A stretch of DNA of 64,000 bases, taken from Wenxinia saemankumensis (GTDB taxonomy: Bacteria; Pseudomonadota; Alphaproteobacteria; Rhodobacterales; Rhodobacteraceae). Below the pieces are notes generated by a model, which ran no database searches, was not told the DNA's origin, and saw nothing but the letters and a program-made list of their open reading frames with translations. The stretch lies in contig NZ_FQYO01000004.1 in NCBI RefSeq assembly GCF_900141735.1, positions 310,001 to 374,000 on the forward strand. The letters are read 5' to 3'. The position numbers and the translations under genes were made by a program. This document shows, in pieces, positions 4,645 through 28,660 of the stretch (position 1 is its first letter; each line of letters starts with the position of its first letter).

Positions 4645-4764
4645 GGCGCGATCTCGTCTGGCCCCCGCCCCCGCCGCAAGGCAGCATGGGCGAAAGGGCG
4701 ACAAAGTGTTGCCACGCTTCCATGTTGGGGCGAGACATCCGCCGGCAGAGCAGACCGAACAGGC

Positions 4765-8973: not shown

Positions 8974-8980
8974 GACCTGC

Positions 8981-12149: not shown

Positions 12150-13454
12150 TCAGCGGGTGACGAGGCGGCCCGCGCCGCCGCCGCTTCCCGTCACGCGCCA
12201 GACGCCGGACATCAGCAGCGTCGCGCCCGCGCCGATCAGCACGGCAAACCCCACGACCACCCGCCGCAGCCGCCGCTCGGGCGGGCGGCCGAGACGCGGG
12301 ATCACCACGACCGGCTTCGCGCCGATCTGCCGCTCGAGCTGCGCGGCCGTCCTGATCCGGCCGGCCGACACTTCCAGCGCCAGCGCCAGCATCAGCGCCA
12401 GGGCACCCGAAACGACGCCCCCGGCCAGCGCCAGCTTGGCCCGGCTGGTCGAGACGGACCCCTCGGGCACGATCGCCTCCTCCAGCACCTCGAATCGCTG
12501 CGACTGTTCTTGGCTCTCGATGATCTCGGTCATCGACGCCTCGGTCCGGCGCTGCGTCAGCACGCCCAGCTCGTCGCGGTACTGCGCCAGCTGCCGTTCG
12601 TAGACGCCGATCTGGCGCTCGACCTCCGGGCCGGCGTCGATCGCGGCCTGCGCATCGGCGAGCCTCGTGTCGATCAGGTCGACCTGCTGCTCGAGGAGCG
12701 CGCGCTGCTGGGCCAGCTCGCCCTCGCGCAGGCGGTCGGCGCTGCCGGCCAGCGCGACTAGTTCGCGCTCCAGCGTCAGGCGCTGCTCGGACAGGCGGGC
12801 GATCTGCTCGCGCTGGGCGGTCTGCGCGGTCGGCAGGCTCTCGGCATTGGCCTCGCGGTAGCGGGTCAGCGCCTCTTCCGTGTCCTCGATCAGGCCGGTC
12901 ACCCGCGCCTCCTCGGACTGGAAGAAGTCGAGCGTCAGCGCGGCCCGGCCCTGCGCGCGGCGGCGTCCCTCCTCGATGATGCGGTCCGACAGCTCGTTCG
13001 CGACGGCCGCCGCCTCGGTCGGGTCGCCCATGCGGACAGTGATCGACAGACCGGCAGGCTGCACGTCGGGCCGCCAGGCGAGGGCGGGGTCGATCATCTT
13101 GGCGATCGTCACGCTGTCGCGCAGCGCCTCGACCCGCTCGATCGGGGACTCGACCTCGGGAAACAGGCCGAGGCGCTCGACCACGCCCATCAGCGAGTCG
13201 CGGGCCAGAACCCGCCCCTGGATCAGGTCGAGCTGGCTGTCGGCGGTGAGGGTCGTGCCGGTGCCGGCGCCAGTCAGGCTCTCGGTCACGCGGGGCGCCT
13301 CGATCTGGATCAGCGCGATCGCCTGGTAGACCTTCGGCTGCTGCAGGGCGAACCAGACCGACAGGGCCGACCCGGCGAGGCCGACCAGCAGGATGACGTA
13401 CCAGCGCCGCAGAAGCGCGCGGATCACGTCCTTGATCGAGGTGAAGGGTCCCAT
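12150..13454 (-). CDS. Wzz-type polysaccharide co-polymerase / chain-length determinant
   Basis: A 434-residue inner-membrane protein. TM1 lies at about 18-38 (after SIKDVIRALLRRWYVILL) and TM2 near 405-425. The large periplasmic segment between them begins with the Wzz signature region and has long coiled coils at about 170-320, rich in Arg/Glu/Gln. A conserved proline-rich stretch precedes TM2. It should form the oligomeric chamber that controls chain length. The cytoplasmic ATPase half is encoded separately at 11159-12118. The ATG at 13454 is preferred over a TTG at 13484 because it directly precedes the amphipathic N-terminus and has GGAACGGAG upstream. Confidence 0.88.
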   Translation of the reverse strand: MGPFTSIKDVIRALLRRWYVILLVGLAGSALSVWFALQQPKVYQAIALIQIEAPRVTESLTGAGTGTTLTADSQLDLIQGRVLARDSLMGVVERLGLFPEVESPIERVEALRDSVTIAKMIDPALAWRPDVQPAGLSITVRMGDPTEAAAVANELSDRIIEEGRRRAQGRAALTLDFFQSEEARVTGLIEDTEEALTRYREANAESLPTAQTAQREQIARLSEQRLTLERELVALAGSADRLREGELAQQRALLEQQVDLIDTRLADAQAAIDAGPEVERQIGVYERQLAQYRDELGVLTQRRTEASMTEIIESQEQSQRFEVLEEAIVPEGSVSTSRAKLALAGGVVSGALALMLALALEVSAGRIRTAAQLERQIGAKPVVVIPRLGRPPERRLRRVVVGFAVLIGAGATLLMSGVWRVTGSGGGAGRLVTR

Positions 13455-13568
13455 GCGGCCGCTCCGTTCCCGTGTCGCCGACAAGGATGCCCGGCGGCCG
13501 AACCGCGCGCATCCCCGTTCGGCCCCGTCGCCGCCACACCCGGGTCACAATCTAGGCATCCCGCCCCG

Positions 13569-13617: not shown

Positions 13618-14235
13618 TCAGCCCGGCAGGTGCAGCCCCGCCAGGATCCAGCCCTCCGCGCGGGCGAGCCGACCACGCAGGACGAGGCCCGCCTCGAAGG
13701 GCGGCAGCGCCCGGGTCAGCCGCGCCTCCCACCCGGTCCCCGTCAGCCGGACCTCGGCCGCGTCGAAGCCGAAGACGGCGCCGTGGGCGGGGGCGAGCGC
13801 CTTGTAGACCGTCTCCTTCGCCGCGAACACCGCCTCTGCCGCGCCCTCGTCCCCCGGCCCGGCGATCTCTGCCGCGACCTCGGGCGGCAGGGGGGCGTCC
13901 GGCACGATGTCGAGACCGACGAGGCCCGGCCCCCGGGCGAGCGCCGCGAGTGCGAGGCCGCCGTGATGCGCGATGCTGCCGACGAATCCGGGCGGCCAGA
14001 CCGGGCCGCGATCGGGCCCGGAGGGGATCGCGGCCGGGGGATGGCCCAGCGCGGCGAGGGCCAGCCGCGCCGCGTGCCGGCCGGCAGCGTATTCCGCCCG
14101 GCGCAGGGGCACGGCGCGGGGGCCGGCCCCCTCCCCCGGAAACGGCGGGGCCGGCGCGCCCGGCCGCACGATCGCGGACCGCACGCCCGGGCCGAACAGG
14201 CCGCTCAGCGCGGCCTCCAGGCGCCGATGGGTCAC
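13618..14235 (-). CDS. 4'-phosphopantetheinyl transferase (EntD/Sfp superfamily)
   Basis: A 205-residue enzyme that transfers 4'-phosphopantetheine from coenzyme A to the conserved serine of carrier domains. The three superfamily motifs are present: GSIAHHGGLALAAL near residue 88, GLDIVPD near 109 (metal-binding acidic residue), and FAAKETVYKAL near 142. The GTG start overlaps the stop of the NRPS gene (GTGA), so production is coupled to it. This makes it the likely dedicated activator of the PCP and ACP of the two megasynthases. Its length matches EntD-like members. A role in activating carriers elsewhere in the cell cannot be excluded. Confidence 0.92.
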   Translation of the reverse strand: MTHRRLEAALSGLFGPGVRSAIVRPGAPAPPFPGEGAGPRAVPLRRAEYAAGRHAARLALAALGHPPAAIPSGPDRGPVWPPGFVGSIAHHGGLALAALARGPGLVGLDIVPDAPLPPEVAAEIAGPGDEGAAEAVFAAKETVYKALAPAHGAVFGFDAAEVRLTGTGWEARLTRALPPFEAGLVLRGRLARAEGWILAGLHLPG

Positions 14236-17200
14236 GGCTCTCCGGACTTGAGAAGCCGCAGCGCCTTGCGCCGGTCCATCACCTCGGTCCGCTCTCTCGT
14301 CTCGTCGGGCTCGGCCTCCGCCGGCGCAGCGAGCGCGCGCAGCACGGCGGCGCGTACATCCTCCGGCGGGTCGCCGGCACCAGGGGCCGGCGCGGCAGGT
14401 CCGACATCGGGCCCGGGCGTCGGTGTCGCGGGGCCGTCGGTCGGCCCCGCATCCGGGGCGGGCGCCTCGGGCCCGGGACCGGCCCGGTAGCCCAGCGCCT
14501 CGATCCGCCCGGCAAGGGCCGAGAGGGTCGGGAAGCGGAACACGTCGGTGATCGACAGCGCCCGCAGGCCCGTCGCCTCGCGCAGCGCCCGGTGCGCCTG
14601 CACCGCCAGGATCGAATGGCCGCCGAGCTCGAAGAAGCTGTCCCGCGCGCGGATGTCCGACACGCCGAGCGTGGCCGACCAGACCTGCCGGACCACCTCG
14701 TCGGCCGGGGGGCCGGACCCGGCCGGCGCGGTCGCCGTCGCGTCCGCCGACCCGGCCAGGGTCGAGGCCGGCGGGATGGCGGGGGGTCCGGTCCGGGCGG
14801 GCCGATCCTCCGGCGCCGGATCCATGTCCCGCATCTGCGCCGGGGCGGGCATGTCCGCCGGGCGGGGCGCGGCCGGCGCGGGCAGGGCCCGGGTATCCAC
14901 CTTGCCGTTCGGGGTCAGGGGAAACGCCTCCATCCCCACGATCCGGGCGGGGACCATCGCGGCGGGCAGCCGGGCGGACAGCGCGGCGCGCAGCTCCGCC
15001 TCGCCCGGGCCGCCGGTCACGTAGGCGACCAGCCTGTCCTCGCGCAGCAGGACCACGGCCTGCGCCGCGCCCGCCGCCTCGAGCGTGGCGGCGATCTCGC
15101 CGGTCTCGATCCGGTGGCCGCGCAGCTTCACCTGTCCGTCGGCGCGGCCGAGGAAGTCGACGGTCCCGTCCGCGCGCCAACGGGCGAGGTCGCCGGTCCG
15201 GTAGACCCGCCCCTCGGCGAAGGGATCGGGCCGGAACCTCTCTGCCGTCAGGTCGGGACGGTCCCAGTAGCCGCGCGCGACGCCGTCGCCGCCGATCCAG
15301 AGCTCGCCCGTGACGCCCACCGGGCAGGGCCGCATCGCCTCGTCCAGGACGTAGAGCCGGGTATTCGCGATCGGCGTGCCGATCCCGTTCGTGACCTGGT
15401 CGGCCCGCGCGGGCTGGGTGGAGGACCAGATCGTCGTCTCGGTCGGGCCGTACATGTTCTCGATCTCGGCGCCGGTCGCCTGACGCAGCTCGCGCACCAG
15501 GCCGCCCGGCAGCGCCTCGCCCCCGATCATCAGGTGGCGCAACCGGCCGAGCGCGGCGCGCGTCTCGTCATGGGCCAGCATCATCCGGGCCATCGAGGGC
15601 GTGCATTGCAGGTGGCTGACGCGATGCGCCGCGATCAGCCCGGCGAGCGAGTGGTCCGCGCCGCCGGTGCCGTCGTTGACCCGGCGCAGCACCTCGGCCA
15701 GCGGGCGCAGACCCTCGAGCACGGTCTCTCGCGCGATGCCGTAGTCGATCAGGCACGCCACCTCGCCGACGCCGATCGCCTTCAGCCCGTCGATCCGCGC
15801 GACCGCGTCCTCGACCGTGCCGAACAGGCCCGACTCCTCGAAATACCGCTCGAAGGCGAAGTCGAGGATCGCGTCCAGCTCCTCGGCCTCGAGCGAGCCG
15901 AGGTCGAGCTGCATCGGGGTCTCGACGCCCTGCGGCTTCTTGAAGGCCGGGAAGGCCCAGGCGTATTGCTTGATGAGGCCGGCGGCAGAGCGCAGGTAGT
16001 CCTTCATCGGCTCGCGCGCGATCTCGCGGGCCTGCGCGCGGCTGTCCGCCAGGTAGGTGTGCAGCATCAGCGTGACGGTGAACTGCGCCGGGTCGTGCCC
16101 CGCCGCGCGCAGCGCCTCGTGATAGAGGGCGATCTTCTGCCCCACCTCCTCGACGCTCTGTCCCAGCAGGTGCGTCAGCACGTTGCACCCGTTCGCCCCC
16201 GCCTCGCGCCAGGTGTCGGGATTGCCCGCCGTCGTGACCCACAGCCGCGGCTGCGGCGAAACGGGACGCGGCTGGGTGACGATGGCATGCATCGTCCCGT
16301 CCGCCTTCGGGAACTCGACCGCCTCGCCGGCCCAGAGCCGCCGCAGATCGCGGATCGCGTCCATCATCGCGGGCTTGTTGGCCGGGGGCGTGTTCTCCGG
16401 CCGGAGGACGAAGTCGTCGGGTTGCCAGCCGCTCGCGATGGCGAGACCGGCGCGGCCGTCCGTCAGGTTGTCGATCACCGCCCATTCCTCGGCGATGCGG
16501 GCGACATGGTGCAGCGGCGCGACGCAGCTGCCGGCCCGGACGCCGATGTTGCGGGTGAGTCCCGCCACGGCCGCCCCGGTGACGGACGGGTTGGGATAGG
16601 GCCCGCCGAAGGCATGGAAATGCCGCTCGGGCGTCCAGACGGCGCAGAACCCGTTCTCGTCGGCGAACCGCGCGCCGTCCAGCAGCAGGGCGTACTTGTC
16701 GCGCCCGGCCCCGTCGTCGTTGCCCCAGTAGTAGAGCGACATCTCCATCCCGCGGGCGGGCGCCTCGGCCGTCAGGGTACGGGCCGCCTCGCTCGCCACG
16801 ACGACATGCATCCCGCGCGACAGCGTCCAGAACAGCTCGAGCACCGAGATGTCGAAGGAGAGCGAGGTGACGGCGAGCCAGGCATCGCCCGGCGCGTGCG
16901 GGATCCGCTCGTCCATCCCGGCGAAGAAGTTCGCGACCTGCGCGTGCTCGATCATCACGCCCTTGGGCCGACCGGTCGAGCCGGAGGTGTAGATGAGATA
17001 GGCCAGGTCGTCCGGGCCGCCCGTCAGTTCGACCAGCGGCTCGGCGCCGGCGATCTCGTCCGCGCCCAGCGCAAGGGCAGGCGTCCCCTCCGGCAGGTCG
17101 CCGGGCGCGTCGCTCAGCACCAGCGCGGTGTTGCTGTCGGAGAGGTAGAGCGCGATCCGGTCGGCCGGGTAGGCCGGGTCGAGCGGCAGGTAGGCGCAGC

Positions 17201-18989
17201 CCGCCCGCAGGATGCCCAGCGCCCCGGCGACGAGGTCGGTGCCCCGCGCGGCGTGCAGGCCGATCACCGCGCCGGGCGCGATGCCCCGGGCACGCAGCGC
17301 GCCGGCGATCCGGGCGGCCCGGTCCTCCAGCTCGGCGAATGAGAGGGTGGTGCCCTCGAAGGTGACGGCCGGCGCGTCCGGCGTCCGACCCGCCTGCTCG
17401 GCCACGAGGGCGTGGATCGTGCGGCGATCCACCTCGCGTTCCGTCGCGTTCCACCCCTCGACCAGCAGGCGCCGCTCGGCCTCCGGCAGGATCGGCAGCG
17501 CGGTGATCGCGGTGTCGTCGTCGAGCCGGGGCAGCGCGGCGAGCAGACCCTCCAGCCGGGCGGCGATCAGCGCCGCCTCGGCCGGCGCGATCCGGGCGGG
17601 ATCGGCATGCAGGCGCAGCCCATGCGCGCCGACGACCAGCGTGACCGCCGCCCCCTCCACGGGCGCGTCGAGCGAGAGCGCCGCCATCGGCATCGCGCCC
17701 CCGGCGAGGGCCGGCAGCCGCGCCGGCAGGTCGATGGCGAAGGGCGCGCGCTGCGACAGGTCGGCGACCTCGGCCACCAGGGCCGTCGCGGCGGCCGCGA
17801 AGCCGTCCTCGGGGTCGTAGCGGAGCGGCATCCAGTCCGCCGTGATGCCGGGCAGGCCGCGCCCGTGGCCCAGGGCGATGTCGACCGCCGCGCCCCCGGT
17901 CATCGCGCAGATCAGCGCGGGAAAGGCCGCGAGCGTCTGTTCGGTCGTCAGCTGCGGCGGCAGGACGATGCCCTTCTGCCAGGGGGCGCCCCCGGGGCCC
18001 GGGGTCGCGCCCCAGGCGGCGGGCGCCATCCGGTCGAGCCGCCTTTCCCAGTCCGGCTCGAACCGGGCGGCGCAGGCCACCGCGGCCTCGGCCCCCGCCA
18101 CCTCTGTCCGGCAGGTCGCGCCGGAACCGGGCAGGTCGGTCGCGGCCAGCCCCATCGGCGTCTGCAGCCCCGACAGGCGGATCGCGCCGTCGCCGGTCGC
18201 GACCGTCAGCGTCCCGGGGCCGGAGGCGAGGATCGCGCCCGGTTCGCCCTCCCCATCGGCCGGTTCGGCGCTGCGGACGATCAGCGTGCGGTCCCAGACG
18301 AGGATCCGCGGCAGCGCGACCGGGTTGCGGTAGCCGCCATGATCGAGCGCGCGGACGAGGCGCAGCGTGCCCTCCACCGTGCGGAAATCCAGCAGCCCCC
18401 CCTGCGGAGGCCGGTCGGCGGCGCGGTGGACGCGGCGCTGCGACAGGTCCTGCTTCGTGCGCGGCAGCTCCCACCGCGACAGCGCCTCCATCACCTCGGG
18501 AAAGCTCTCGATCGCGGCGGCGAAGCACTTGAGGTTGAGGCTGAGCGCCGTCTCGCCCTCGCCGATCTCGACCGGCCGGGTGACGAGCAGGTCGCCCTCG
18601 TCCACCCCGCCCTCGATCAGGTGCCACGAGATGCCGTGCGCCCTCTCCCCCTCCAGCAGGGCCCAGACGGGGGCGTTGAGGCCGGCATGGGCGGGCAGCG
18701 GGCCGTCGTGGAAGTTGACGGCCCCCCGGCGGGGCAGGGCGAGCACGTCGTCCGGCAGCAGGTCGAGATTGGCGACGCTGAGCAGCCAGTCCACCTGCAG
18801 GCCGCCGATGCGCGACGCCAGTTTCGGCCCCGGGGCGAAGAGCGGCAGGTCCCGCGATTCGGCCCAGGCCCGCACCTCGTCCGACCGGGTGACGAGTCCG
18901 CGGACCGGGTGCCCCGCCTCGAGCAGCATCTTCCCCGCCTCGATCGTGAGGGTGTCGCTACCGACGAGCAGGGCGGTGAAGCTGGGCAT
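14232..18989 (-). CDS. NRPS: formyltransferase-like / adenylation with inserted luciferase-like monooxygenase / PCP (MupA/Atu3671 type)
   Basis: About 1585 residues. (1) Residues 1-300: formyltransferase-like domain (methionyl-tRNA formyltransferase fold) with N-x-H in AVNFHDGPLPAH near 92-94 and Asp in GGVDEGD near 130. (2) 330-510: region resembling the end of a condensation domain, with no HHxxxDG. (3) Adenylation domain interrupted after motif A4: A3 YTSGSTGRPKG near 668, A4 SFDIS near 712. (4) About 745-1105: FMN-dependent luciferase-like monooxygenase (SLYYWGNDD, WTPERHFHAFGGPYPNP, LAIASGWQPDDF). (5) Rest of the adenylation domain: A5 NMYGPTETTIW near 1180, A7 YRTGDLARW near 1263, A10 PLTPNGKVD near 1358. 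(6) PCP: FFELGGHSILAVQ, pantetheine Ser near 1459. It should activate one amino acid, oxidise it and possibly formylate it. A GTG at 19007 is an alternative start. The PPTase gene is coupled at the 3' end. Confidence 0.92.
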   Translation of the reverse strand: MPSFTALLVGSDTLTIEAGKMLLEAGHPVRGLVTRSDEVRAWAESRDLPLFAPGPKLASRIGGLQVDWLLSVANLDLLPDDVLALPRRGAVNFHDGPLPAHAGLNAPVWALLEGERAHGISWHLIEGGVDEGDLLVTRPVEIGEGETALSLNLKCFAAAIESFPEVMEALSRWELPRTKQDLSQRRVHRAADRPPQGGLLDFRTVEGTLRLVRALDHGGYRNPVALPRILVWDRTLIVRSAEPADGEGEPGAILASGPGTLTVATGDGAIRLSGLQTPMGLAATDLPGSGATCRTEVAGAEAAVACAARFEPDWERRLDRMAPAAWGATPGPGGAPWQKGIVLPPQLTTEQTLAAFPALICAMTGGAAVDIALGHGRGLPGITADWMPLRYDPEDGFAAAATALVAEVADLSQRAPFAIDLPARLPALAGGAMPMAALSLDAPVEGAAVTLVVGAHGLRLHADPARIAPAEAALIAARLEGLLAALPRLDDDTAITALPILPEAERRLLVEGWNATEREVDRRTIHALVAEQAGRTPDAPAVTFEGTTLSFAELEDRAARIAGALRARGIAPGAVIGLHAARGTDLVAGALGILRAGCAYLPLDPAYPADRIALYLSDSNTALVLSDAPGDLPEGTPALALGADEIAGAEPLVELTGGPDDLAYLIYTSGSTGRPKGVMIEHAQVANFFAGMDERIPHAPGDAWLAVTSLSFDISVLELFWTLSRGMHVVVASEAARTLTAEAPARGMEMSLYYWGNDDGAGRDKYALLLDGARFADENGFCAVWTPERHFHAFGGPYPNPSVTGAAVAGLTRNIGVRAGSCVAPLHHVARIAEEWAVIDNLTDGRAGLAIASGWQPDDFVLRPENTPPANKPAMMDAIRDLRRLWAGEAVEFPKADGTMHAIVTQPRPVSPQPRLWVTTAGNPDTWREAGANGCNVLTHLLGQSVEEVGQKIALYHEALRAAGHDPAQFTVTLMLHTYLADSRAQAREIAREPMKDYLRSAAGLIKQYAWAFPAFKKPQGVETPMQLDLGSLEAEELDAILDFAFERYFEESGLFGTVEDAVARIDGLKAIGVGEVACLIDYGIARETVLEGLRPLAEVLRRVNDGTGGADHSLAGLIAAHRVSHLQCTPSMARMMLAHDETRAALGRLRHLMIGGEALPGGLVRELRQATGAEIENMYGPTETTIWSSTQPARADQVTNGIGTPIANTRLYVLDEAMRPCPVGVTGELWIGGDGVARGYWDRPDLTAERFRPDPFAEGRVYRTGDLARWRADGTVDFLGRADGQVKLRGHRIETGEIAATLEAAGAAQAVVLLREDRLVAYVTGGPGEAELRAALSARLPAAMVPARIVGMEAFPLTPNGKVDTRALPAPAAPRPADMPAPAQMRDMDPAPEDRPARTGPPAIPPASTLAGSADATATAPAGSGPPADEVVRQVWSATLGVSDIRARDSFFELGGHSILAVQAHRALREATGLRALSITDVFRFPTLSALAGRIEALGYRAGPGPEAPAPDAGPTDGPATPTPGPDVGPAAPAPGAGDPPEDVRAAVLRALAAPAEAEPDETRERTEVMDRRKALRLLKSGEP

Positions 18990-19025
18990 GACGTGGTCTT
19001 TCGGCACGGGGAACGGACTTTCGGA

Positions 19026-20009
19026 TCAGGCGCGCGCAGAGGGGTCCGGCCGCCGGGCACGGCGGGCCGAGTCGCGGGAATGTCGCACCAAGGTGCGAAG
19101 AAAGTGTGGCGGATCGTCCGCGCGACGGCCTCGGGCCAGGTTGCGCGCCCGGTGGACCAGCCCGCCCGCGACCCGCGCGACATCGGCGGCGGCCGCAAAT
19201 GCGGCGCCATGACTCTTGCGGAAATAGTGGCGGCGCGAGTCGAACCAGTACTCCGGCACCCGCGCCCAGTCCTTCATCCCCGTCGAGACCGAGCCGATAT
19301 GCGCGACCCGGCTCCCGGGAACGAAGCGCGTCGTCCATCCGGCGCGGCGCGCCCGCAGGCAGAGCTCCGTCTCCTCGAAATAGAGGAAGAACGTCTCGTC
19401 GAAGCCGCCCACTTCCTCGAGCACGGCGCGGCGGATCATCAGGCTCGCCCCGGCGAGCCAGTCCACCTCGCAGGCGCGACCGGGCGTGTCGAGCGGCACC
19501 CGCCGCGCGGCGAGCAGGCGCGAGACCGGGCCGAACCTCGCCCCCTCCTCGAACTCGCTGGCGATCGAAGGGAAGCGGAAGGTGGTCAGGTGCGTCGCGC
19601 CGTCCTCGCCGTGGATCAGGCTCCCCGCGAGGCCGGCGCGGGGATGGGCGGCCAGATCCTCAGCGAGCGCGCGGATCGCATCCGGCGCGGGGAAGGCGTC
19701 GGAATTGAGGATGTAGACGAGGTCCGGCACGGCGCCGCCGGGCAGCCCCGCGCGGATCCCGGCATTGTTGCCCGCGCCGAAGCCGCCGTTGCGGCCCGAC
19801 TGGATCACCCGCACCCGGTCCTGCCCGGCCAGCGCCGCCGAAAGCCGCTCGAACGAGCCGTCCCGCGAATCGTTGTCGACAACGGTGATCCCGCCGGCCA
19901 GCCCCTCCATCGCCGCGAGGGCCGCCTCGACCGCGCGCAGGGTCATGTCCGGCGTGCGCCAGTTCAGCACGATCGTGTGGATCACGGGCGCCGCCACCGT
20001 TGCGCTCAC
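19026..20009 (-). CDS. Glycosyltransferase family 2 protein (rhamnosyltransferase-like)
   Basis: A 327-residue GT-A enzyme of the WcaA/RfbN-like group. It has TIVLNWRTPD near residue 14, VVDNDSRDGSFERL near 45, GGFGAGNNAGIRAG near 75, the DXD-like YILNSDAFPAPDAI near 98 and GGFDETFFLYFEETELCLR near 200, which is the catalytic ED/EE block. A basic C-terminal tail follows. The GTG start overlaps the stop of the PKS gene (GTGA), and the NRPS gene begins 36 bp after its stop. A glycosyltransferase thus sits inside the assembly-line operon, which suggests that the product, or its carrier glycan, is glycosylated as part of the same pathway. The sugar is unknown. Confidence 0.9.
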   Translation of the reverse strand: MSATVAAPVIHTIVLNWRTPDMTLRAVEAALAAMEGLAGGITVVDNDSRDGSFERLSAALAGQDRVRVIQSGRNGGFGAGNNAGIRAGLPGGAVPDLVYILNSDAFPAPDAIRALAEDLAAHPRAGLAGSLIHGEDGATHLTTFRFPSIASEFEEGARFGPVSRLLAARRVPLDTPGRACEVDWLAGASLMIRRAVLEEVGGFDETFFLYFEETELCLRARRAGWTTRFVPGSRVAHIGSVSTGMKDWARVPEYWFDSRRHYFRKSHGAAFAAAADVARVAGGLVHRARNLARGRRADDPPHFLRTLVRHSRDSARRARRPDPSARA

Positions 20010-23000
20010 TCCGCCGCGCGCAGCAGGGGCCAGGCCGCGCTCTCCGCCTCGCGCTCCGCCGCCTCGATCACCCGGCGCATCCGCGCGGCGAGGACGCGGA
20101 CATTCGGCTCCAGCACCATCGAATCGTGGGTGCCGGGCACCTCGTGCACCGCGATGGCGGGGGCATGGGCGGTCCAGTCGTTGTCGGGCAGGACATAGGC
20201 CCGCTCGTCCGAGACCCAGCGGCCCGGCGCGACCTCCCACCGGCCCACCAGCGGCGGGCGGAACAGGTCGAGCGGTCCGTCCCAGGGCCGCACCTCGTAG
20301 CGCGCGATGGCGTCGTAGAAGGCCGCCTCGATCGCCTTGTCGTGGAACTCCGCCTCGGCGGCCGTCTCGATCACCGGGCGCCGCCGCGCCCGCGACCAGG
20401 CGATGCGCCGCGCGGCCCATTTTACCGGGTAGAACGCCCCCTCCTCGCGCCATTTCAGGCGCTGGATCGCCAGCCGGTCGGCCCGGGCGAGCGGGCGGCG
20501 GCGTGGCAGCGGCGTGTCGAGCATCACCAGCGCCGACACCTCCTCGCCCGCCGCCTTCAGCTGTCGGGCGATCTCGTAGGCGGTGATCCCTCCGCCCGAG
20601 AAACCGCCGATCATCCAGGGGCCGCGCGACTGCACCTGCCGCATCTCGGCCAGCATGTCGCGCGCCGCCGCCTCGATGTCGCGGTGCGGCTCGGCATCGC
20701 CGTAGAGACCGCGCGCCTGCAGGCCGTAGACCGGGCGGTCGGCCCCGATCAGATGCGCCAGGTGGCGCAGGTTCAGCACGTTGCCGAACATGCCCGCGAC
20801 GAGGAAGAACGGCGTCTTCGGCCCGCCCTCCCCCTCGTGCATCGGCACGACATGGGTGAAGCGGCGGGCCGGGGCGGCCTCGCTCCGCGCGGTGTCCTCC
20901 GGTCCGGCATCGCCGCCGGCCTCGGCGATCAGGCGCGCGCAGGAGCGGATCGTCGGCGCCTCGAACAGGACCGAGATCGGGAAATCGACGTCGAAGGCCT
21001 TCCTGATCCGGGCGAAGAGGCGCACCGCGATCAGGGAATGACCGCCGAGATCGAAGAAGCTGTCCTCGGCCCCGATCCGGCTCACGCCCAGAAGCTCGGA
21101 CCAGATCGCGGCGAGCCGCCGTTCCACCTCGCCCTCGGGCGGAACGAAATCGCCGTCGAGCGCCGGACGCTCGAAGGTGCGGGCCGGCCCGGCCTCGGCG
21201 CGGGCGCCGGCTTGCGCGATCAGCGCGGTCAGGTCCATCGACGAGACGAGCACGCGCGGCCGGCCCGAGGCGAGCGCGCGGAAGAACATCGCCGCCCCGT
21301 CCTTCGGCGGGATCCCCTGCGAGATGGCGTGGCGCAGCCGCTCCTCCTCGGGCGAGAGGGGGCGCACGGCCTCGACCGCGCGGCGGGCGGGCGCCGCGCC
21401 CAGCGACAGGCCCTGCGCCACCTTGCGGATGGTGAAGCCCCTTATGTCGACGCAGATCGTGCCGTCCGGGGCGCAGAGGCTGATGTCGAACCGGGCGGTC
21501 CCCGAGTCGGCGACGTTGCGGCCGGCGCTGCGCACCCAGCTCACCATCTCGGCCGGGAGGGGGCCGTGGACGCGCAGGGCGGCGTAGCTCACCGGCACCC
21601 ACAGGTGATCGGGTGCGTAGCCCTCGATCAGGTCCATCGCCCAGCCGGTCGCGATGTCCATCAGCCCCGGATGCAGGTGGTACTCGGCATCGCCCTCCGG
21701 CAGTTCGAGCTGGGCGAGACCCTCGCCCTCGCCCGTCCGCGTCGCGGTCATCACCCGCCAGCGCCGGCCGAAGCGCAGATGCGCCTCCTGCGGCGAGCGC
21801 AGCGTGCCGCCCTCCTCGGCCAGGGTCAGCCGCCCGCAGCGCAGCGCGATGGCCTCCAGATCCACGCGCGGCGGCGTCGGCAGGTCGTAGAGCCGGATCT
21901 CGCCCGTCGCGTTCTGCTCCCACCCCGCGCCGCGATCGCTCTCGACCACGAGGCGATAGCCTCTGTCGCTGCGCGGCAGCGTCACCCGGACCGTCGTCTC
22001 GCCGGCATCGGGGACCGAGAGCGGCCGTTCGAAGGTCAGGTCGCGCAGCTCGAACGTGGTCGGCTCGCCCTGCGCGGCCAGCGCCTCGGCCGCGAGTTCG
22101 AGGTAACCGGTCCCGGGCAGGAGCGCGCCGCCGTCACGGGTGCGATGCTCGTCCAGAACCCAGCGCGCGGCGCTGCGCCAGCGCGCGGTGAAGACGCGGT
22201 TGGCGGCCGCGTCGAAGCTCGCGGCGTCCAGCAGGGCGGCGTCGATCACCTGCGGCGGCGGCGGCGTCACCCCTTCGCGGGCGCGCATCGCCTCGGCCGC
22301 CATGCCGACCTCGGCCCAGATGCCCCAGTTCAGCGCGAGGACGCGGGTCCGGCCGCCGGAACGCGACGCGGCGAAGGCGTCGAGCCAGGCATTGGCGGCG
22401 ACGTAGTCGACCTGTCCCGCCGGGGCCGTGGCGACGGAGGAGGACGAGAACAGCGCGATCCACTCGACCGCCCCGTCCGGGAAGAGCAGGTCCAGCACCT
22501 GCCCGCCGTGGATCTTGGGCGTGAACACGTCCTCGACCGAGACCGGGCTCTTGCCCAGGATCGGCGCGTCGTCGATCACGCCCGCCCCGTGGACCACGCC
22601 CGAGATCGGGCCGAGCGTCTCGTGCATCTGCGCGGCGACGCGGCGCATCTCCTCGACGTTGGACACGTCGGCGGCGAAGGTCGCGACCGCCCCGCCCGAC
22701 GCGCTGGCCGCGGCCTGCAACCGGCGGATCGCCCGCAGCCGCCCGGCCAGCCGGTCGCCGGGGGCGGACCGGGCGAGCACCCTGTCCCACTCTCCCCGCG
22801 GCGGCAGCGGCTGGCGCGCGACCAGCGCCACCTTCGCCCCGCGTTCGCGGATCAGCGCCTCGGCGATGGTCAGGCCGATCCCGCCATAGCCGCCGGTGAA
22901 CAGGACGACGGACCCCTCCGCCACCGGCATCTGCCCGGTCGGCGGCAAGTCGGCGCGGGTCCAGCGCGGCGCGTAGCGGATGCCGTCCCGCCACGCGGCG

Positions 23001-26000
23001 CGGCCGCTATCCGGATCGGACAGCGCCTCGGCCAGCACCGCCGCGACCTGGGCCTCCGACCCGTCGGGGGCGGGCAGGTCGAGCGAGCGGCAGGTCACCT
23101 GCGGGAATTCGCGCGGGATCACGCGGAGCGGCCCCTGCACGGTGGCCTTGTCGGGATGGCGCAGCGCCTCTCCCCGCACCTGCGCCGCCTCGGAGGTGAC
23201 GACCGTGATGTCGAGCGGCCCGCCATCGGCCCCGCCCCAGGCCTGGGCGAGGAAGAACAGCGACCAGAAGCCCTGCTCCTGCACCCGGTGATAGAAGGAC
23301 GAGCCCGGCCGCGCCCCCTCGTCCGCCGTGGCCAGCCACAGGTGCAGCACACGGTCCGGCATCCTCTCCTCGGCCGCTAGGGCCGAGATCATCGCGTCGA
23401 ACCCCTCGCGCCCGCGCTCGGGGGCGATTGTGTAGCCCGCCTCCGTCCGGGCGAAGGAATCGCCCGGACGCACCACGACGACCTCGTGCCCCGCCGCCAT
23501 CAGCCGCCGGGTCACGTCGGCGCCCAGCGGGCCACCATCGGCAAAGACGAGCCAGCGCGCGGCCGGCGCGTCCGACAGGTCGCCCGCCACGTCCACGCCG
23601 CATTCGGCATAGGCGGGCCGCCAGCTCTCGACCCAGCCCCAACGCTCCCGGTCCTCGATCCGCATCGGCCAGTCCGGCGCCTCGGCGGTCCGGCCGGGGT
23701 CGATCCAGTAGCGCGACCGCTGGAACGGGTAGGTCGGCAGCGGCACCCGCCTGCGCCGCGCCGCGCCCCAGAGCTGCGACCAGTCGAACCGCCCGCCCGT
23801 GGCCCAGACCCGGCCGAGCTGCGCGACGAAATAGGCATCGTCCGCGGCGCCGTCCTCGGGATGGCGGAGCGAGCCGATCACCTGGTTCGCAGTCACCTGC
23901 CCGTGCTGTCCGGCCAGCGAGGACAGGGCCTTGCCCGGCCCGACCTCGATGTAGATCCGCTCGGGGTCCTGCGAGAGCGTCGTCAGCCCGTCCGCGAAAT
24001 GCACCGTGCCGCGCAGGTGCCGCACCCAGTAGTCCGGATCAGTCGCCTCGTCGTCGGTGATCCAGTCCCCGGAGCGGTTCGAGACGAAGGGGATCGCCGG
24101 CGCCTTCAGGTCGAGCGCGGCGAGGAAGGCGCGGAACTCGTCCAGGATCGGCTCCAGCATCCGGCTGTGGGCGGCGATGTCGATCGGGATGCGCCGGCAC
24201 TCGATCTCGTCCGCCTTCAGCGCCGCTTCCAGCGCATCCAGCGCCGCGCGGGGGCCGGACGCCACGCAGAGGCCGGGCGCATTCACGGCGGCAAGGTCGA
24301 GATCTTCCCCCAGCCGCGCCCTCAGCTCGGCCTCCGGCAGCGCGACGGACAGCATCCCGCCCTCGGGCACCGTGTCGAAGAGCCGCCCGCGCAGGCTGAC
24401 GAGGCGGATACAGTCGTCGAACCCCATCACCCCGGCCACGGCGGCCGCCGTGTTCTCGCCCATCGAATGGCCGATCAGCGCGGCGGGCCGCACGCCCCAG
24501 CCCATCCAGAGCTGCGCGAGCGCGTATTCCACGATCATGATGAGCGGCAGCTGGACGGAGGGTCGCTGCAGACGCGCGCTCACCTCGTCCGCATTTCCGT
24601 CCGTCAGCCAGTCGGCGCGGGGATCGTCGCCCGTCTCCGCCGCCAGCACGTCGAGGCCCCGGTCCATCCACTCGCGGAAGACGGGCTCGGTCTCGTAGAG
24701 GCCGCGCGCCATATCCGCGTATTGCGCCCCGCCGCCGGGAAACATGAAGACGATGCCGGGATCCTCGGCGACGACCGTGTGGGTGAAGACCCGGCGCGGA
24801 TCGTTCGCGCGCAGCGCCTCGGCCGCCTCCTCGTGCGAGGCTGCGACGACCACGCGCCGCCGGTCGAAGGCACGGCGGCCCTCCTTCAGCGTCCAGGCGA
24901 CATCGGCCAGCGGCTGGTCGCCCCGCGCCTCCAGATGATCCGCCAGGCGGTCCGCCGCCGCGTCGAGCGCGGCCTTCGACCGGGCCGACAGCGTCAGCAG
25001 CTGGAACGGCCAGTCGCTCTCCTCCGCCGCCGGCGGCTCCGGCGCCTCTTCCAGCACGACATGGGCGTTCGTGCCGCCGACGCCCAGCGACTGCACGCCG
25101 GCGCGGCGGGGATGGGTCCCGCGCTCCCAGTCGCGCAGCGTATCGTTCACCACGAAGGGCGAGCCCTCGAACGGGATGGCCGGGTTCGGCGCCTCGTATC
25201 CCAGCGAGGGCGGCATCTGCCGGTGATGCAGCGCGAGCGACGCCTTGATCAGCGAGGCGACCCCCGCGGCGGTGTCGAGATGGCCGATATTCGTCTTGAC
25301 CGATCCGATGCGGCAATGGCCGGTCCCGCTGTCGCCGAAGGCTTCGCTGAGGGCCGCGACCTCGATCGGATCGCCGAGATAGGTGCCGGTCCCGTGGCAC
25401 TCGACATAGTCGATCGTGGCGGGATCGACGCGCGCCACGCGCTGCGCCTCGCGGATCGCGCCGGCCTGTCCATCCACGGAAGGGGCGAGATACCCGGCCT
25501 TGTCCGACCCGTCGTTGTTGATCGCGGTCCCCTTGATGACCGCCCAGATGTGGTCGCCGTCGCGCAGCGCGTCGGACAGGCGCCGCAGCACCACGATCCC
25601 CGCGCCCGAGCCGAAGACGGTGCCCTGCGCCCGGTGGTCGAAGGCGTGACATTCGCCGTCGGGGGACAGGATCTCGCCCTCCTTGTAGAGGTAGCCCCGT
25701 CCCTGCGGCAGCTCGATCGTGGCGCCGCCCGCCAGCGCCATGTCGCATTCGCCCATCATCAGGGCCTGGCACGCGTAATGCACCGCGACCAGCGAGGTCG
25801 AGCAGGCCGTCTGCACGTTCACGCTCGGCCCGCGCAGATCGAAGACGTGGGAGACGCGGGTGGTCAGGAAATCCTTGTCGTTGCCGGTATGGCGCAGCAG
25901 GAACTCGCCCGTCTCGGCCACGAGATCGGGGTTCGTCATCAGGTTGAAGTAGAAATACGACCCCATCCCGCAGCCGCCATAGACCCCGACCGGGCCGCTC

Positions 26001-26362
26001 AGCGTCTCGGGCGGATGGCCCGCATTCTCCATCGCCTCCCACGCGACTTCCAGGAAGTGGCGGTGCTGCGGATCGAGGATCGCGGCCTCCTTCGGCGAGA
26101 AGCCGAAGAACTCCGCGTCGAACAGGTCGTGCCCCTCGAGCGGGGCGGCAAAGGGGACGTAATCCTTGTGCGAGCGCCGCTGCGGCGCCTCGCCCGAGGC
26201 ATCGAGCTCGGCCTCGCTCAGCCGCCGGATCGACCGCACCCCGTCGCGCAGGTTGCGCCAATAGCCGTCGACATCCGCCGATCCCGGCAGATGCGCGGCC
26301 ATCCCGACGATGGCGATGTCCGATACCCTAGCCACGGCATGCGATCCCGGGCGTGTGGCCAT
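20006..26362 (-). CDS. Type I polyketide synthase, KS-AT-KR-DH-ACP-TE
   Basis: A 2118-residue single-module PKS. KS at 13-440: Cys187 in VQTACSTS, His323 in ECHGTGT, His361 in NIGHLDTAAG. AT about 535-880: FPGGGAQ, Ser633 in GHSMGE, His732. A structural KR half at about 930-1110 precedes the catalytic KR at 1150-1350 (FTGGYGGIG, Tyr1320, Asn1324). A DH-like hot-dog region follows at about 1395-1655 (His1406 in LDEHRTRDGG, Asp1569 in HPGLMDI). ACP at 1745-1815 has Ser1776 in DLGGHSL. TE at 1845-2118 has Ser1922 in GGFSGGG and His2079. There is no ER. It should extend the acyl group handed over by the NRPS PCP by one unit, reduce and perhaps dehydrate it, and release it. KR before DH is not the usual order. 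The ATG has GAGG about 10 bp upstream. Confidence 0.93.
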   Translation of the reverse strand: MATRPGSHAVARVSDIAIVGMAAHLPGSADVDGYWRNLRDGVRSIRRLSEAELDASGEAPQRRSHKDYVPFAAPLEGHDLFDAEFFGFSPKEAAILDPQHRHFLEVAWEAMENAGHPPETLSGPVGVYGGCGMGSYFYFNLMTNPDLVAETGEFLLRHTGNDKDFLTTRVSHVFDLRGPSVNVQTACSTSLVAVHYACQALMMGECDMALAGGATIELPQGRGYLYKEGEILSPDGECHAFDHRAQGTVFGSGAGIVVLRRLSDALRDGDHIWAVIKGTAINNDGSDKAGYLAPSVDGQAGAIREAQRVARVDPATIDYVECHGTGTYLGDPIEVAALSEAFGDSGTGHCRIGSVKTNIGHLDTAAGVASLIKASLALHHRQMPPSLGYEAPNPAIPFEGSPFVVNDTLRDWERGTHPRRAGVQSLGVGGTNAHVVLEEAPEPPAAEESDWPFQLLTLSARSKAALDAAADRLADHLEARGDQPLADVAWTLKEGRRAFDRRRVVVAASHEEAAEALRANDPRRVFTHTVVAEDPGIVFMFPGGGAQYADMARGLYETEPVFREWMDRGLDVLAAETGDDPRADWLTDGNADEVSARLQRPSVQLPLIMIVEYALAQLWMGWGVRPAALIGHSMGENTAAAVAGVMGFDDCIRLVSLRGRLFDTVPEGGMLSVALPEAELRARLGEDLDLAAVNAPGLCVASGPRAALDALEAALKADEIECRRIPIDIAAHSRMLEPILDEFRAFLAALDLKAPAIPFVSNRSGDWITDDEATDPDYWVRHLRGTVHFADGLTTLSQDPERIYIEVGPGKALSSLAGQHGQVTANQVIGSLRHPEDGAADDAYFVAQLGRVWATGGRFDWSQLWGAARRRRVPLPTYPFQRSRYWIDPGRTAEAPDWPMRIEDRERWGWVESWRPAYAECGVDVAGDLSDAPAARWLVFADGGPLGADVTRRLMAAGHEVVVVRPGDSFARTEAGYTIAPERGREGFDAMISALAAEERMPDRVLHLWLATADEGARPGSSFYHRVQEQGFWSLFFLAQAWGGADGGPLDITVVTSEAAQVRGEALRHPDKATVQGPLRVIPREFPQVTCRSLDLPAPDGSEAQVAAVLAEALSDPDSGRAAWRDGIRYAPRWTRADLPPTGQMPVAEGSVVLFTGGYGGIGLTIAEALIRERGAKVALVARQPLPPRGEWDRVLARSAPGDRLAGRLRAIRRLQAAASASGGAVATFAADVSNVEEMRRVAAQMHETLGPISGVVHGAGVIDDAPILGKSPVSVEDVFTPKIHGGQVLDLLFPDGAVEWIALFSSSSVATAPAGQVDYVAANAWLDAFAASRSGGRTRVLALNWGIWAEVGMAAEAMRAREGVTPPPPQVIDAALLDAASFDAAANRVFTARWRSAARWVLDEHRTRDGGALLPGTGYLELAAEALAAQGEPTTFELRDLTFERPLSVPDAGETTVRVTLPRSDRGYRLVVESDRGAGWEQNATGEIRLYDLPTPPRVDLEAIALRCGRLTLAEEGGTLRSPQEAHLRFGRRWRVMTATRTGEGEGLAQLELPEGDAEYHLHPGLMDIATGWAMDLIEGYAPDHLWVPVSYAALRVHGPLPAEMVSWVRSAGRNVADSGTARFDISLCAPDGTICVDIRGFTIRKVAQGLSLGAAPARRAVEAVRPLSPEEERLRHAISQGIPPKDGAAMFFRALASGRPRVLVSSMDLTALIAQAGARAEAGPARTFERPALDGDFVPPEGEVERRLAAIWSELLGVSRIGAEDSFFDLGGHSLIAVRLFARIRKAFDVDFPISVLFEAPTIRSCARLIAEAGGDAGPEDTARSEAAPARRFTHVVPMHEGEGGPKTPFFLVAGMFGNVLNLRHLAHLIGADRPVYGLQARGLYGDAEPHRDIEAAARDMLAEMRQVQSRGPWMIGGFSGGGITAYEIARQLKAAGEEVSALVMLDTPLPRRRPLARADRLAIQRLKWREEGAFYPVKWAARRIAWSRARRRPVIETAAEAEFHDKAIEAAFYDAIARYEVRPWDGPLDLFRPPLVGRWEVAPGRWVSDERAYVLPDNDWTAHAPAIAVHEVPGTHDSMVLEPNVRVLAARMRRVIEAAEREAESAAWPLLRAAE

Positions 26363-26459: not shown

Positions 26460-27842
26460 TTACCGCGCCGTCAGACCGTGCCCCATCTGCAGCAACGGCA
26501 GGAGGTCGGCGCGATGATACCAGAGCACGATCGCGGCGAGAACGCTCAGAAGGAAGAAGAAACCGGCATCGTGGACGGGATCCCACGCCCCGTGCGGCCG
26601 GTTCAGCCAGGCGAGGACGGGATAGACCGCGATCCCGGCCAGCGCCATGCCGCACGCCGCGCCCAGAAGCCCGCCCACGAACAATCCGGCGACGATCCCT
26701 GCGACCGTCGCCACGGCGCGAACGAGCGTCAGCCGGAAGAAGCGCCGCGAATCGCCATAGGCGAGGGCGGCCTGGTCGCAGGACTGCATGATCAGCACCG
26801 GGATCTGCGCCGCCGCCACGGCGGTGACGATGCCCGCCGCCGCCTCGTAGCGGTCGTCATACATCAGTCGCACCAGCCAGGGCCCCAGCGCCGCCACGGC
26901 GAGGAGCAGCGTGCCCAGCCCCGCCGTCGCCACGGCCCGCATCCGCCGGACCCGCAGCGCGTTCGCCCGGCTCTCGGCCGGGGGGCTCTCGCGGTAGACC
27001 GGGATCACGAGGCGCCGCATCAGCGCCCCGCCCAGGATGATCGGGAAGGAGGCGAGGAAATAGCCGATGGAATAGACGCCGAAATTCTCGAGCGTCAGCG
27101 CCCGGCCGAGGATCAGCTTGTCGGCCTGCATGATGAAGAAGCCGCAGACGGTGGACAGGAAGATCCACTTGCCGAAATGGACCAGCTCGTGCGCGGCGGC
27201 GCTTTCCCAGCGCAGCCGGTTGCGGGGGCCGGGAAGGATCAGCGTCGCCAGCACGACGTTCGCGAGCGAGGCGGCATAGCCCGAGACGACCAGCGCCCAG
27301 ACCGACCCCCACGCCCAGGCGAAGAGGATCGCGACCGCCACCCCGATCGCCTGGATCGCCAGCTCGACCGCGGTCACGAGGCCGGCGCGCAGATGCCGGT
27401 TCTGCACCTCGTAGGCGGTCGGCCGGAACCCGTCGACGATCAGCGTGCCCCCCATCGCCGGCAGCAGCGCCAGCAGGGCCGGCTCGCGGTAGAACTGCGC
27501 CACCGGCCAGGCCAGCGCGCAGATCGCGGCGAAGAGGACCAGGCCGCGCAGGATCTGGATCGTCCAGGCGGTGTCGAGGAAATCGGGATCGTCGCCCCGC
27601 TTCGAGGACATGATCGACGGGCCGATCCCCACATCCGAGAACATGCCGAGGCCGATCAGCACCACCGTCACCAGCGCCATCAGGCCGAACGCCTCGGGAA
27701 AGAGCAGCCGGGTCAGGACGAGGTTCGAGGCCAGCCGGAGCGCCTGACCGCCGCCGAAACCGAGGAAGGTGATGAGCGAGGACCGCGCCGCGCGCGCGAC
27801 GAGGCCGCTGCCCGACAGGAACCGGGGCCGCAGCGCGATCAT
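26460..27842 (-). CDS. Oligosaccharide flippase (Wzx-like, lipopolysaccharide biosynthesis protein)
   Basis: A 460-residue membrane protein with about 12 hydrophobic helices spread over its whole length. It begins with SSLITFLGFGGGQALRLASN, typical of polysaccharide transport proteins of the MOP superfamily. GDDPDFLDTAWTIQILRG near residue 80 and VQNRHLRAGLV near 140 match the Wzx/PST family. It should flip the undecaprenyl-linked repeat unit to the periplasmic side. The ATG overlaps the upstream GT2 stop (ATGA). The PKS gene starts 97 bp after this gene's stop in the same direction, so flippase, PKS and NRPS are probably co-transcribed. Confidence 0.9.
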   Translation of the reverse strand: MIALRPRFLSGSGLVARAARSSLITFLGFGGGQALRLASNLVLTRLLFPEAFGLMALVTVVLIGLGMFSDVGIGPSIMSSKRGDDPDFLDTAWTIQILRGLVLFAAICALAWPVAQFYREPALLALLPAMGGTLIVDGFRPTAYEVQNRHLRAGLVTAVELAIQAIGVAVAILFAWAWGSVWALVVSGYAASLANVVLATLILPGPRNRLRWESAAAHELVHFGKWIFLSTVCGFFIMQADKLILGRALTLENFGVYSIGYFLASFPIILGGALMRRLVIPVYRESPPAESRANALRVRRMRAVATAGLGTLLLAVAALGPWLVRLMYDDRYEAAAGIVTAVAAAQIPVLIMQSCDQAALAYGDSRRFFRLTLVRAVATVAGIVAGLFVGGLLGAACGMALAGIAVYPVLAWLNRPHGAWDPVHDAGFFFLLSVLAAIVLWYHRADLLPLLQMGHGLTAR

Positions 27843-28660
27843 CGGCCGCGGCTCCAGGTCGAGCGGTGCGGCAGCACGCGCGAGAGCAGGCCGATCCCGG
27901 CATAGAAGGCGAAGGACAGCGGCGCGCGCGCCGCGAGCGGGGCCGCCCGCGCCCGGCGCCCGGTCTCGTTCGCCATCAGCCCGGGGAAGCGCGCCGCGAC
28001 CTCGCGCACGCCGGCATCCTGCCGCCGGCGCACCCGCAGCAGCGCGGCGGCCCCTTCGACCACCGGCCAGTCGTAGCTCGCCCGCACCCCGATCCTCTCG
28101 TGTTCCGCGAAGTTCAACCGCACGAAGGCATCGTCGGCGATGATGTCGGGAAAGCGGCCCCACCGCGCCCGCCCCGCGGCATTGACCGCGTAGAGCCCGC
28201 AGCCGGGCACGCCCTCGGCCATGAAGGGCACGCGCGCCCAGGTCGCGGCATAGGCCCGGGCCGCGGGTCCGCGCGCCGTCATCCGCAGCCTGCCGCTGGC
28301 ATAGGCGGGACCGGGGCGGTCGAGCGCGGCTGCGAGCTGGGACATCAGCTCGGCCGAGACGGTCACGTCGGCGTCGAGATAGACGCGGGGGCCCCCGTGC
28401 GGGCCCAGCGCCTCCTCGGCCGCGTTCAGGGCCCCCGGCTTGCCGAGTCCGGGCAGGTCGAGCACCTCAAGCCGCCAGCCCGACGCCGCCGCCCGCCCCG
28501 CGCGGTCCCGCGCCTCGTCCACCGTGCCGTCGGTACAGCCGTTGGCGGCGACGACGATCCGCGCCCCGGCCGGGATCCCGGTCGAGGCGAGCACGGCGTC
28601 GAGGCAGGGGCCGATGCGGCCCGCCTCGTTCGCGGCGGGTATCAGGACGGCGAGGGTCAC
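27839..28660 (-). CDS. Glycosyltransferase family 2 protein
   Basis: A 273-residue GT-A enzyme starting LAVLIPAANEAGRIGPCL. VVAANGCTDGT lies near residue 37. A DAD metal site in YLDADVTVSAEL lies near 94, and the acceptor block FPDIIADDAFVRL near 155 carries the catalytic aspartates. It is the first gene of the leftward operon that continues through flippase, PKS, GT2, NRPS and PPTase. The GTG at 28660 is preferred because AGGGGAAAAG lies directly upstream. A longer in-frame N-terminus would translate the 15-bp repeats in the promoter region and is less likely. Confidence 0.88.
   Translation of the reverse strand: MTLAVLIPAANEAGRIGPCLDAVLASTGIPAGARIVVAANGCTDGTVDEARDRAGRAAASGWRLEVLDLPGLGKPGALNAAEEALGPHGGPRVYLDADVTVSAELMSQLAAALDRPGPAYASGRLRMTARGPAARAYAATWARVPFMAEGVPGCGLYAVNAAGRARWGRFPDIIADDAFVRLNFAEHERIGVRASYDWPVVEGAAALLRVRRRQDAGVREVAARFPGLMANETGRRARAAPLAARAPLSFAFYAGIGLLSRVLPHRSTWSRGR

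Follow-up and report, generated by a model that had tools for sequence, protein, structure and literature searches.

The system analysed here is a nonribosomal peptide synthetase (NRPS) and polyketide synthase (PKS) pair encoded inside a Wzx/Wzy exopolysaccharide locus of Wenxinia saemankumensis, within a stretch of 64,000 nt (assembly GCF_900141735.1, contig NZ_FQYO01000004.1, positions 310,001-374,000, forward strand; hereafter the window). Several described systems resemble it in part, and the comparisons with them refer to the available portions of the cited papers. In a published survey, the adenylation (A) domain code DILQLGMIWK occurs in all four glycine domains found to bear a flavin mononucleotide (FMN) monooxygenase (MOX), and the MOX there cleaves the backbone of the glycine unit to leave a terminal amide (PMC12283262). 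The MupA bimodule has been studied for alpha-hydroxylation of a thioester bound to an acyl carrier protein (ACP) (PMC10952193). The window NRPS shares with the surveyed glycine modules a MOX inserted in the A domain and a code of the form DILQ-x-GMIWK; whereas those modules give a terminal amide, the MOX here lies in a formylating module, apparently the first and not by its look the last one of the line, within a glycan locus.

A second likeness is to conglobatin and oxazolomycin biosynthesis, for which CongA, with a formyltransferase (F) domain and a glycine A domain, is proposed to hand formylglycyl to a PKS (PMC4504003). A formyl-glycine starter NRPS feeding a PKS is also what we propose here; in contrast, the available part of PMC4504003 mentions no MOX for conglobatin and proposes a cyclodehydratase for the oxazole, while the present line has one reducing PKS module and a thioesterase (TE). 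On the polysaccharide side, the type I PKS encoded by rkpA/wcbR is a regular member of capsule polysaccharide clusters (PMC3908369). Compared by description only, RkpA/WcbR thus resembles the present PKS in lying in a surface polysaccharide cluster, but the portion of PMC3908369 at hand mentions neither an NRPS partner nor a formyltransferase, whereas the window has Wzx and Wzy and a family 2 glycosyltransferase (GT2) gene between the assembly-line genes. Additionally, Inhi_1972 and Inhi_1974 of Phaeobacter inhibens, a PKS and an NRPS two locus numbers apart, are listed under secondary metabolism (PMC4062626); their spacing is what the present cassette would give, a likeness drawn from gene numbering alone. 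The part of PMC4062626 available draws no tie to polysaccharide, while the cassette here stands in a glycan locus, and a Phaeobacter sp. locus (L159) among our sequences holds the cassette. The initial annotation regarded placement inside a Wzx/Wzy locus as the new element. A search of open-licence full texts turned up no paper describing an NRPS-PKS at a Wzx/Wzy locus, and the view holds to that extent; a PKS in a capsule locus as such was already known from rkpA/wcbR (PMC3908369, as far as its available text goes).

In our view, with a probability of roughly 0.6, the NRPS-PKS is an assembly line dedicated to a single surface polysaccharide system rather than a stray natural-product cluster. 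Its genes form a leftward run, GT2b-Wzx-PKS-GT2a-NRPS-PPTase (PPTase, phosphopantetheinyl transferase), from 28660 to 13618, with all six genes on the minus strand:

27839..28660, minus strand: GT2b glycosyltransferase, overlapping wzx (Glycos_transf_2, 6.2e-11)
26460..27842, minus strand: Wzx-type flippase (Polysacc_synt_3, 2.1e-46)
20006..26362, minus strand: PKS, monomodular, with ketosynthase (KS), acyltransferase (AT), ketoreductase (KR), dehydratase (DH), ACP and TE domains in that order (domain scan)
19026..20009, minus strand: GT2a glycosyltransferase, between PKS and NRPS (Glyco_tranf_2_3, 4e-15)
14232..19007, minus strand: NRPS (Formyl_trans_N, AMP-binding split by Bac_luciferase/TIGR04020, PP-binding)
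13618..14235, minus strand: PPTase of the Sfp type (4PPT_N, 1.6e-21; motifs GLDI and FAAKETVYK)

Read directly on the sequence, the PKS and GT2a genes overlap by 4 bp (GTGA, 20009-20006), as do the NRPS and PPTase genes (GTGA, 14235-14232), where the PPTase start lies over the NRPS stop, and the GT2b and Wzx genes (ATGA, 27842-27839). The spacing from Wzx to the PKS is 97 bp, and the Wzz gene continues in the same direction after the PPTase (13484-12150). The genes, leftward direction and three overlaps given in the initial annotation are thus borne out, at the places it named, by domain scans and sequence. Its unit of 13618-26362 also stands but is too short, as the unit continues to about 28660 and has a further likely partner, an SGNH-domain protein, at 30159-32972.

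The cassette is widespread in the Rhodobacteraceae. The family search covered 394 genomes from 393 genera, with NRPS presence defined as a TIGR04020 match above the curated cut-off; 142 of the 394 pass, about a third of the sampled genera. Matches of any strength occur in 311 of the 394, the weaker ones being presumably other luciferase-like enzymes. For 80 of the 142 NRPS genomes, 20 kb around the match was collected as a first locus set. Of these 80 neighbourhoods, 78 contain an NRPS match above 850 bits and 78 a PKS match above that score, while GT2a is found in 76 and the PPTase in 59. At least one additional gene from the glycan locus of the window is present in 75, and at least three are present in 67. 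The 80 best of 588 relatives from named genomes form a second set. It partly overlaps the first, L118 and L105 for instance lying on contigs of equal length, and comprises Roseovarius, Salipiger, Shimia, Sulfitobacter, Paracoccus, Gemmobacter and other Rhodobacteraceae together with two Hydrogenophaga; among these best 80 of 588, GT2a is present in 79 and further glycan genes in 78, and the three without a PKS match above 850 bits (L140, L146, L165) are short or cut records. As a control, the 21 locus queries were run against 15 random 20-kb regions from such genomes, and none gave a match. A chance or local oddity was ruled out by this result (0/15) together with the recurrence of the same gene order across the family. 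The initial annotation held that homologous pairs lying mostly outside glycan loci would speak against the coupling; within the family the opposite is seen (75/80 and 78/80), and outside it both settings occur.

Five first-set loci lack a further glycan match, namely L038 and L098, which are of natural-product type, and L041, L053 and L057. In the genome of L057 (G276), Wzx and Wzy lie about 21-24 kb away, and in that of L041 (G292) Wzx is on another contig. The L053 cassette (G217) adjoins glutamine synthetase and ABC transporter genes.

Flippase and polymerase homologs co-occur with the NRPS, as the initial annotation suggested checking. At an E-value of up to 1e-50 the window Wzx has a match in 144 of 394 genomes, and at up to 1e-20 the window Wzy has one in 156. 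NRPS and Wzx are both present in 129 genomes (NRPS only 13, Wzx only 15, neither 237; odds ratio 157), and NRPS and Wzy in 134 (NRPS only 8, Wzy only 22, neither 230; odds ratio 175), so that 129 and 134 of the 142 NRPS genomes carry the respective partner. With a minimum identity of 44%, set after the list had been viewed, Wzx is found in 130 genomes, of which 125 have the NRPS and the other five the PKS. The 15 genomes with Wzx only were considered as counter-examples and rejected as such: five carry the PKS (G085, G097, G114, G147, G155), and the other ten have a Wzx of 39-43% identity. PKS matches of 34-47% identity in G104, G253, G313, G321 and G355 were taken for other PKSs. NRPS and Wzx share a contig in 104 of the 129 genomes, 82 times within 12 kb and 99 times within 40 kb, and in three genomes both are present 355 kb to 1.9 Mb apart.

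The remainder of the locus supplies the polysaccharide machinery:

35930..37172, plus strand: GT4c glycosyltransferase, start approximate (domain scan)
37166..37900, minus strand: priming undecaprenyl-phosphate sugar transferase, start approximate (Bac_transf, 2.2e-57; WbaP and EPS_sugtrans models under cut-off)
34267..35649, minus strand: predicted Wzy polymerase with a WaaL-like fold (model fold; Wzy_C in relatives)
32969..34300, minus strand: GT4b glycosyltransferase, start approximate (Glyco_trans_1_4, 1.2e-21)
30159..32972, minus strand: SGNH-domain protein, probably secreted (motifs GHSLVN ... DDAPH; fold of a stand-alone relative)
28771..29967, plus strand: GT4a glycosyltransferase, divergent (Glycos_transf_1, 9.4e-33)
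12150..13484, minus strand: Wzz/PCP (here polysaccharide co-polymerase) chain-length protein (Wzz, 7.9e-6; XrtA chain-length model, 1.6e-26, under cut-off)
11159..12118, plus strand: BY-kinase-like ATPase (models under cut-off)
8020..11065, plus strand: GT2c, Gfo/Idh oxidoreductase and epimerase genes belonging to this glycan locus (domain scan)
4629..8023, plus strand: second Gfo/Idh (end), epimerase and GT4 genes (domain scan)
3874..4800, minus strand: WecG/TagA/CpsF glycosyltransferase (domain scan)

With flippase, polymerase, chain-length protein and priming transferase together, the locus is of the Wzx/Wzy-dependent type, and the assembly-line run is embedded in it. The product of 34267..35649 has no Pfam match; Wzy_C is matched in all three relatives scanned, at about 1e-5 and under the curated cut-off. 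Its model (pLDDT 85.8) aligns with the O-antigen ligase WaaL (7tpg) at Z 18.9, with a root-mean-square deviation of 4.8 over 343 residues and the next-best row at Z 9.1, and by this modelled fold the protein is a Wzy polymerase.

Two arrangements recur. The first, as in the window, is GT2b-Wzx-PKS-GT2a-NRPS-PPTase-Wzz with the BY-kinase-like gene; in the second, Wzy precedes the PKS, and the NRPS or PPTase gene is often followed by an SGNH-like gene and one for a further protein. Both arrangements share the inner block PKS-GT2a-NRPS-PPTase, with short or overlapping junctions. By alignment estimates over the two overlapping sets, the PKS-GT2a junction falls within -60 to 100 bp in 151 of 153 loci, the GT2a-NRPS junction in 120 of 153 and the NRPS-PPTase junction in all 124. 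Wzz is adjacent in 44 of the 80 sampled loci and the BY-kinase-like gene present in 42. Because the NRPS genomes mostly share a Wzy, and Wzz or BY-kinase-like genes stand near many copies, a polymer is the probable product of the locus.

The NRPS consists of a formyltransferase, an A domain into which an FMN MOX is inserted, and a peptidyl carrier protein (PCP) domain. The MOX is of the MupA/Atu3671 type (TIGR04020, 464.6 bits against the curated cut-off of 244.45) and is inserted after the motif region that we take to be A4. The formyltransferase (Formyl_trans_N, 5.7e-16) keeps N98, H100 and D136, presumably the Asn-His-Asp catalytic triad, in 74 of 75 aligned rows, L043 being the exception. 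The stretch between the F and A domains looks by eye like a condensation-like remnant, and a Pfam search of it gave a chance match only. Placed on GrsA positions, an assignment that we assume to hold here, the A-domain code is DILQMGMIWK in the window and DILQ[MLFYV]GMIWK in all 75 aligned rows; the window agrees with the published MOX glycine code at 9 of 10 positions, and 16 of the 75 rows are identical to it. Since published MOX-bearing glycine domains share this near-identical code, glycine is the likely substrate. A conserved basic tail at the NRPS C-terminus (window 14232-14330; consensus DAMARRRAMRAxR over 21 orthologs) is possibly a docking peptide for the PKS. The GLDI and FAAKETVYK motifs of the PPTase, taken here with their usual meaning, suggest that it would activate the carrier domains.

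In the PKS, the catalytic residues, assigned from known motifs that we take to apply, are kept in all 76 aligned sequences including the window: C187, H323 and H361 of KS, S633 and H732 of AT, Y1320 of KR, H1406 and D1569 of DH, S1776 of ACP, and S1922 and H2079 of TE. The conserved residues thus predict an active-type monomodular type I PKS, whose extender would be malonyl. Among the domains and residues checked in the window, nothing points to decay of the line. The alignments and trees omit L068, L087 and open reading frames outside set length limits, and the trees also omit the unrelated L098.

These domains are compatible with the following sequence of events. The PPTase would arm the PCP and ACP; the A domain would load glycine, which the N-terminal domain would formylate; and the MOX would oxidise the glycyl unit, probably at the alpha carbon. 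The KS would then take the unit from the PCP and add one malonyl, with KR and DH reducing and dehydrating it, after which the TE would release or transfer a small formamido acyl group of about four carbons to a repeat-unit sugar, most likely the residue handled by GT2a. The handover itself may be performed by the TE, by GT2a or by another enzyme. Finally, the matching Wzx would flip the tagged repeat and Wzy would polymerise it, and the SGNH enzyme, where present, may trim or re-transfer acyl groups outside the inner membrane. The small oxidised aminoacyl-polyketide foreseen in the initial annotation fits the glycine code, the MOX and the single extension module; its structure and its attachment to the glycan, like the order of the steps, are what this scheme proposes.

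The SGNH-domain protein is a partner absent from the gene set of the initial annotation. In the window protein (30159-32972) the SGNH-like domain is N-terminal, with the own-genome match at window 32109-32951; weak RTX repeats lie at the C end and the middle part has no Pfam match, and a search of the 30159-32960 protein against solved structures returned nothing at E up to 1. It is probably secreted. Many loci have a stand-alone relative of about 315 residues next to the NRPS or PPTase gene, and the protein or a relative is present in 53 of the 160 fetched loci (overlapping sets). GHSLV, D248 and H251 are invariant in 24 of 24 rows. The model of the L062 protein (pLDDT 95.3) starts with a hydrophobic helix and gives Z 20.4 to the DUF4886 protein 4i8i, 17.0 to the putative SGNH hydrolase 4s1p and about 12-14 to carbohydrate esterases, so that the partner is modelled as an SGNH hydrolase fold, its first conserved block carrying the Ser and its last the DxxH. 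With an E-value limit of 1e-40 it occurs in 60 of 315 genomes; 58 of these belong to the NRPS set, and fragments of the NRPS are present in the remaining two, G114 and G147. The SGNH protein implies the NRPS, not the reverse. Among the 58, SGNH and NRPS lie within 20 kb in 42, at 27-583 kb on the same contig in 5 and on other contigs in 11.

Outside the family, 11 of 385 genomes in a wider class sample pass the TIGR04020 cut-off, five of which belong to the window's family, and five stretches were fetched from the remaining six. Two of these (L198, L199) pair a similar NRPS with a PKS and have no match to glycan queries, and L200-L202 are other assembly lines. In the natural-product relatives L038, L198, L199 and L234, a similar NRPS of about 1480-1550 residues stands beside a PKS or NRPS-PKS gene, with no glycan genes. 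A plasmid search matched 28 records, including 7 Streptomyces and also Nostoc, Deinococcus and Burkholderia; 10 of the 28, four of them without annotation, were examined. Copies lie within annotated glycan regions in Ruegeria conchae, Paracoccus marcusii, Parasedimentitalea marina, Aminobacter and Shinella, the last two with annotated flippase and glycosyltransferases, while the Aliiroseovarius copy is outside any annotated glycan region. In the unannotated Rhizobium, Neorhizobium and second Shinella stretches, a flippase and a WecG relative lie near the pair, and in the Methylobacterium stretch neither of these was found near it. The trees, which set 77 rows against 3 and 31 against 5 (the latter with 24 of the 75 orthologs), place the family NRPSs, with a nested Hydrogenophaga pair and five Rhizobiales beside them, apart from natural-product copies (Shimodaira-Hasegawa-like approximate likelihood ratio test 100, quick method). 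The Hydrogenophaga copies are flanked by WecG, GT2 or GT4 genes. In Hydrogenophaga pseudoflava (L151), the cassette is followed by a second large open reading frame of 2002 codons (18759-24764), which contains A-, carrier- and TE-like stretches.

Several observations weigh against a dedicated role in the polysaccharide system. The association statistics ignore shared descent, although nearly every genome comes from a different genus, and most partners are physically linked. Where Wzx falls below 44% identity, the NRPS is present in 4 of 14 genomes, which is not above the base rate. Six of the 142 NRPS genomes, including the one with an outgroup copy (G144), lack both Wzx and Wzy, and G217 has PKS, NRPS and SGNH genes without GT2a, Wzx, Wzy or glycan neighbours. 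The Aminobacter and Shinella PKSs are divergent from the NRPS, with no GT2 gene between the two, and many NRPS genomes, including the window's congener (G050), have no SGNH match at E 1e-40. On the chemical side, the window glycine code differs from the published MOX code at one position, release of a free acid by the TE is conceivable, and no product, linkage or mutant for the system came up in the literature searched. A cytoplasmic sugar acyltransferase is not a constant neighbour in the 80 loci, the one such gene cluster being found in 7, with Acyl_transf_3 in its scanned member.

Part of this evidence would suit a free small metabolite, such as a signal, siderophore or antibiotic, whose position in a glycan island reflects joint inheritance or movement of genes. 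The closest outgroup NRPSs (L038, L198, L199, L231, L234) have no glycan-gene match or annotation, the last PKS domain is a TE, G217 has the pair in the absence of glycan genes, and copies occur on plasmids. However, a particular flippase, polymerase and SGNH enzyme co-occur strongly with the line, also in cases where these are far apart, the Hydrogenophaga copies still adjoin glycan genes, and GT2a is matched in 76 of 80 loci and tight behind the PKS in 151 of 153; we regard a free metabolite as unlikely, though as the most serious competitor. Wzx proteins flip polyprenyl-linked glycans, which also argues against a further scheme in which GT2a glycosylates the NRPS-PKS product and Wzx exports a small glycoconjugate without any polymer. 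This scheme would account for the GT2a gene tight behind the PKS and for the co-occurrence of Wzx, but Wzy is present in 134 of 142 NRPS genomes, and Wzz (44/80) and the BY-kinase-like gene (42/80) point to a polymer, making it the least probable of the alternatives. Little more probable is an anchoring or priming function, in which the PKS would supply the polysaccharide with an unusual lipid or starter, as has been proposed for RkpA/WcbR-type enzymes. A polysaccharide needs a lipid carrier, and a PKS beside capsule genes is on record in the available text of PMC3908369; one module, an amino-acid starter and a TE nevertheless imply a short polar product and no lipid, unless the PKS is iterative, and the locus has its own priming sugar transferase.

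A dedicated assembly line for one polysaccharide system thus remains the preferred reading. Its extension to a whole glycan class is evenly balanced between true and false: such a class would carry an NRPS-PKS-built non-sugar group, with NRPS-PKS and GT2 as writer, a matched flippase and often an SGNH editor, in about a third of the sampled Rhodobacteraceae genera, passed to Hydrogenophaga and with sister systems in Rhizobiales. If so, orphan NRPS-PKS genes listed as secondary metabolism in marine roseobacters would be cell-surface genes, and an assembly-line-made exopolysaccharide modification would await isolation in abundant marine bacteria. It would constitute a new way of decorating sugars and provide a rule by which natural-product mining could separate out such clusters.

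Variant forms of the line were also observed. In G085 (L219, 4198-13831) the NRPS has no MOX, and the PKS has no DH and a replaced KR catalytic tyrosine, with the rest of the line and locus remaining; as a single case, it hints that MOX, KR and DH act together as one group of chemical steps. Its congener G774 has full-length open reading frames of 2158 and 1516 codons, judged by length alone. The G097 line (L218, 5190-15512) is decaying, with a truncated KS, a stop between two PKS halves and an NRPS without MOX, and its wzx and wzz still look intact. In L046 (G009) the PKS and NRPS are broken into several frames. In G303 (L223, 5990-11547), a different NRPS of 1409 residues, with condensation, A, PCP and TE domains in that order, adjoins a Wzx gene lying far from the NRPS-PKS.

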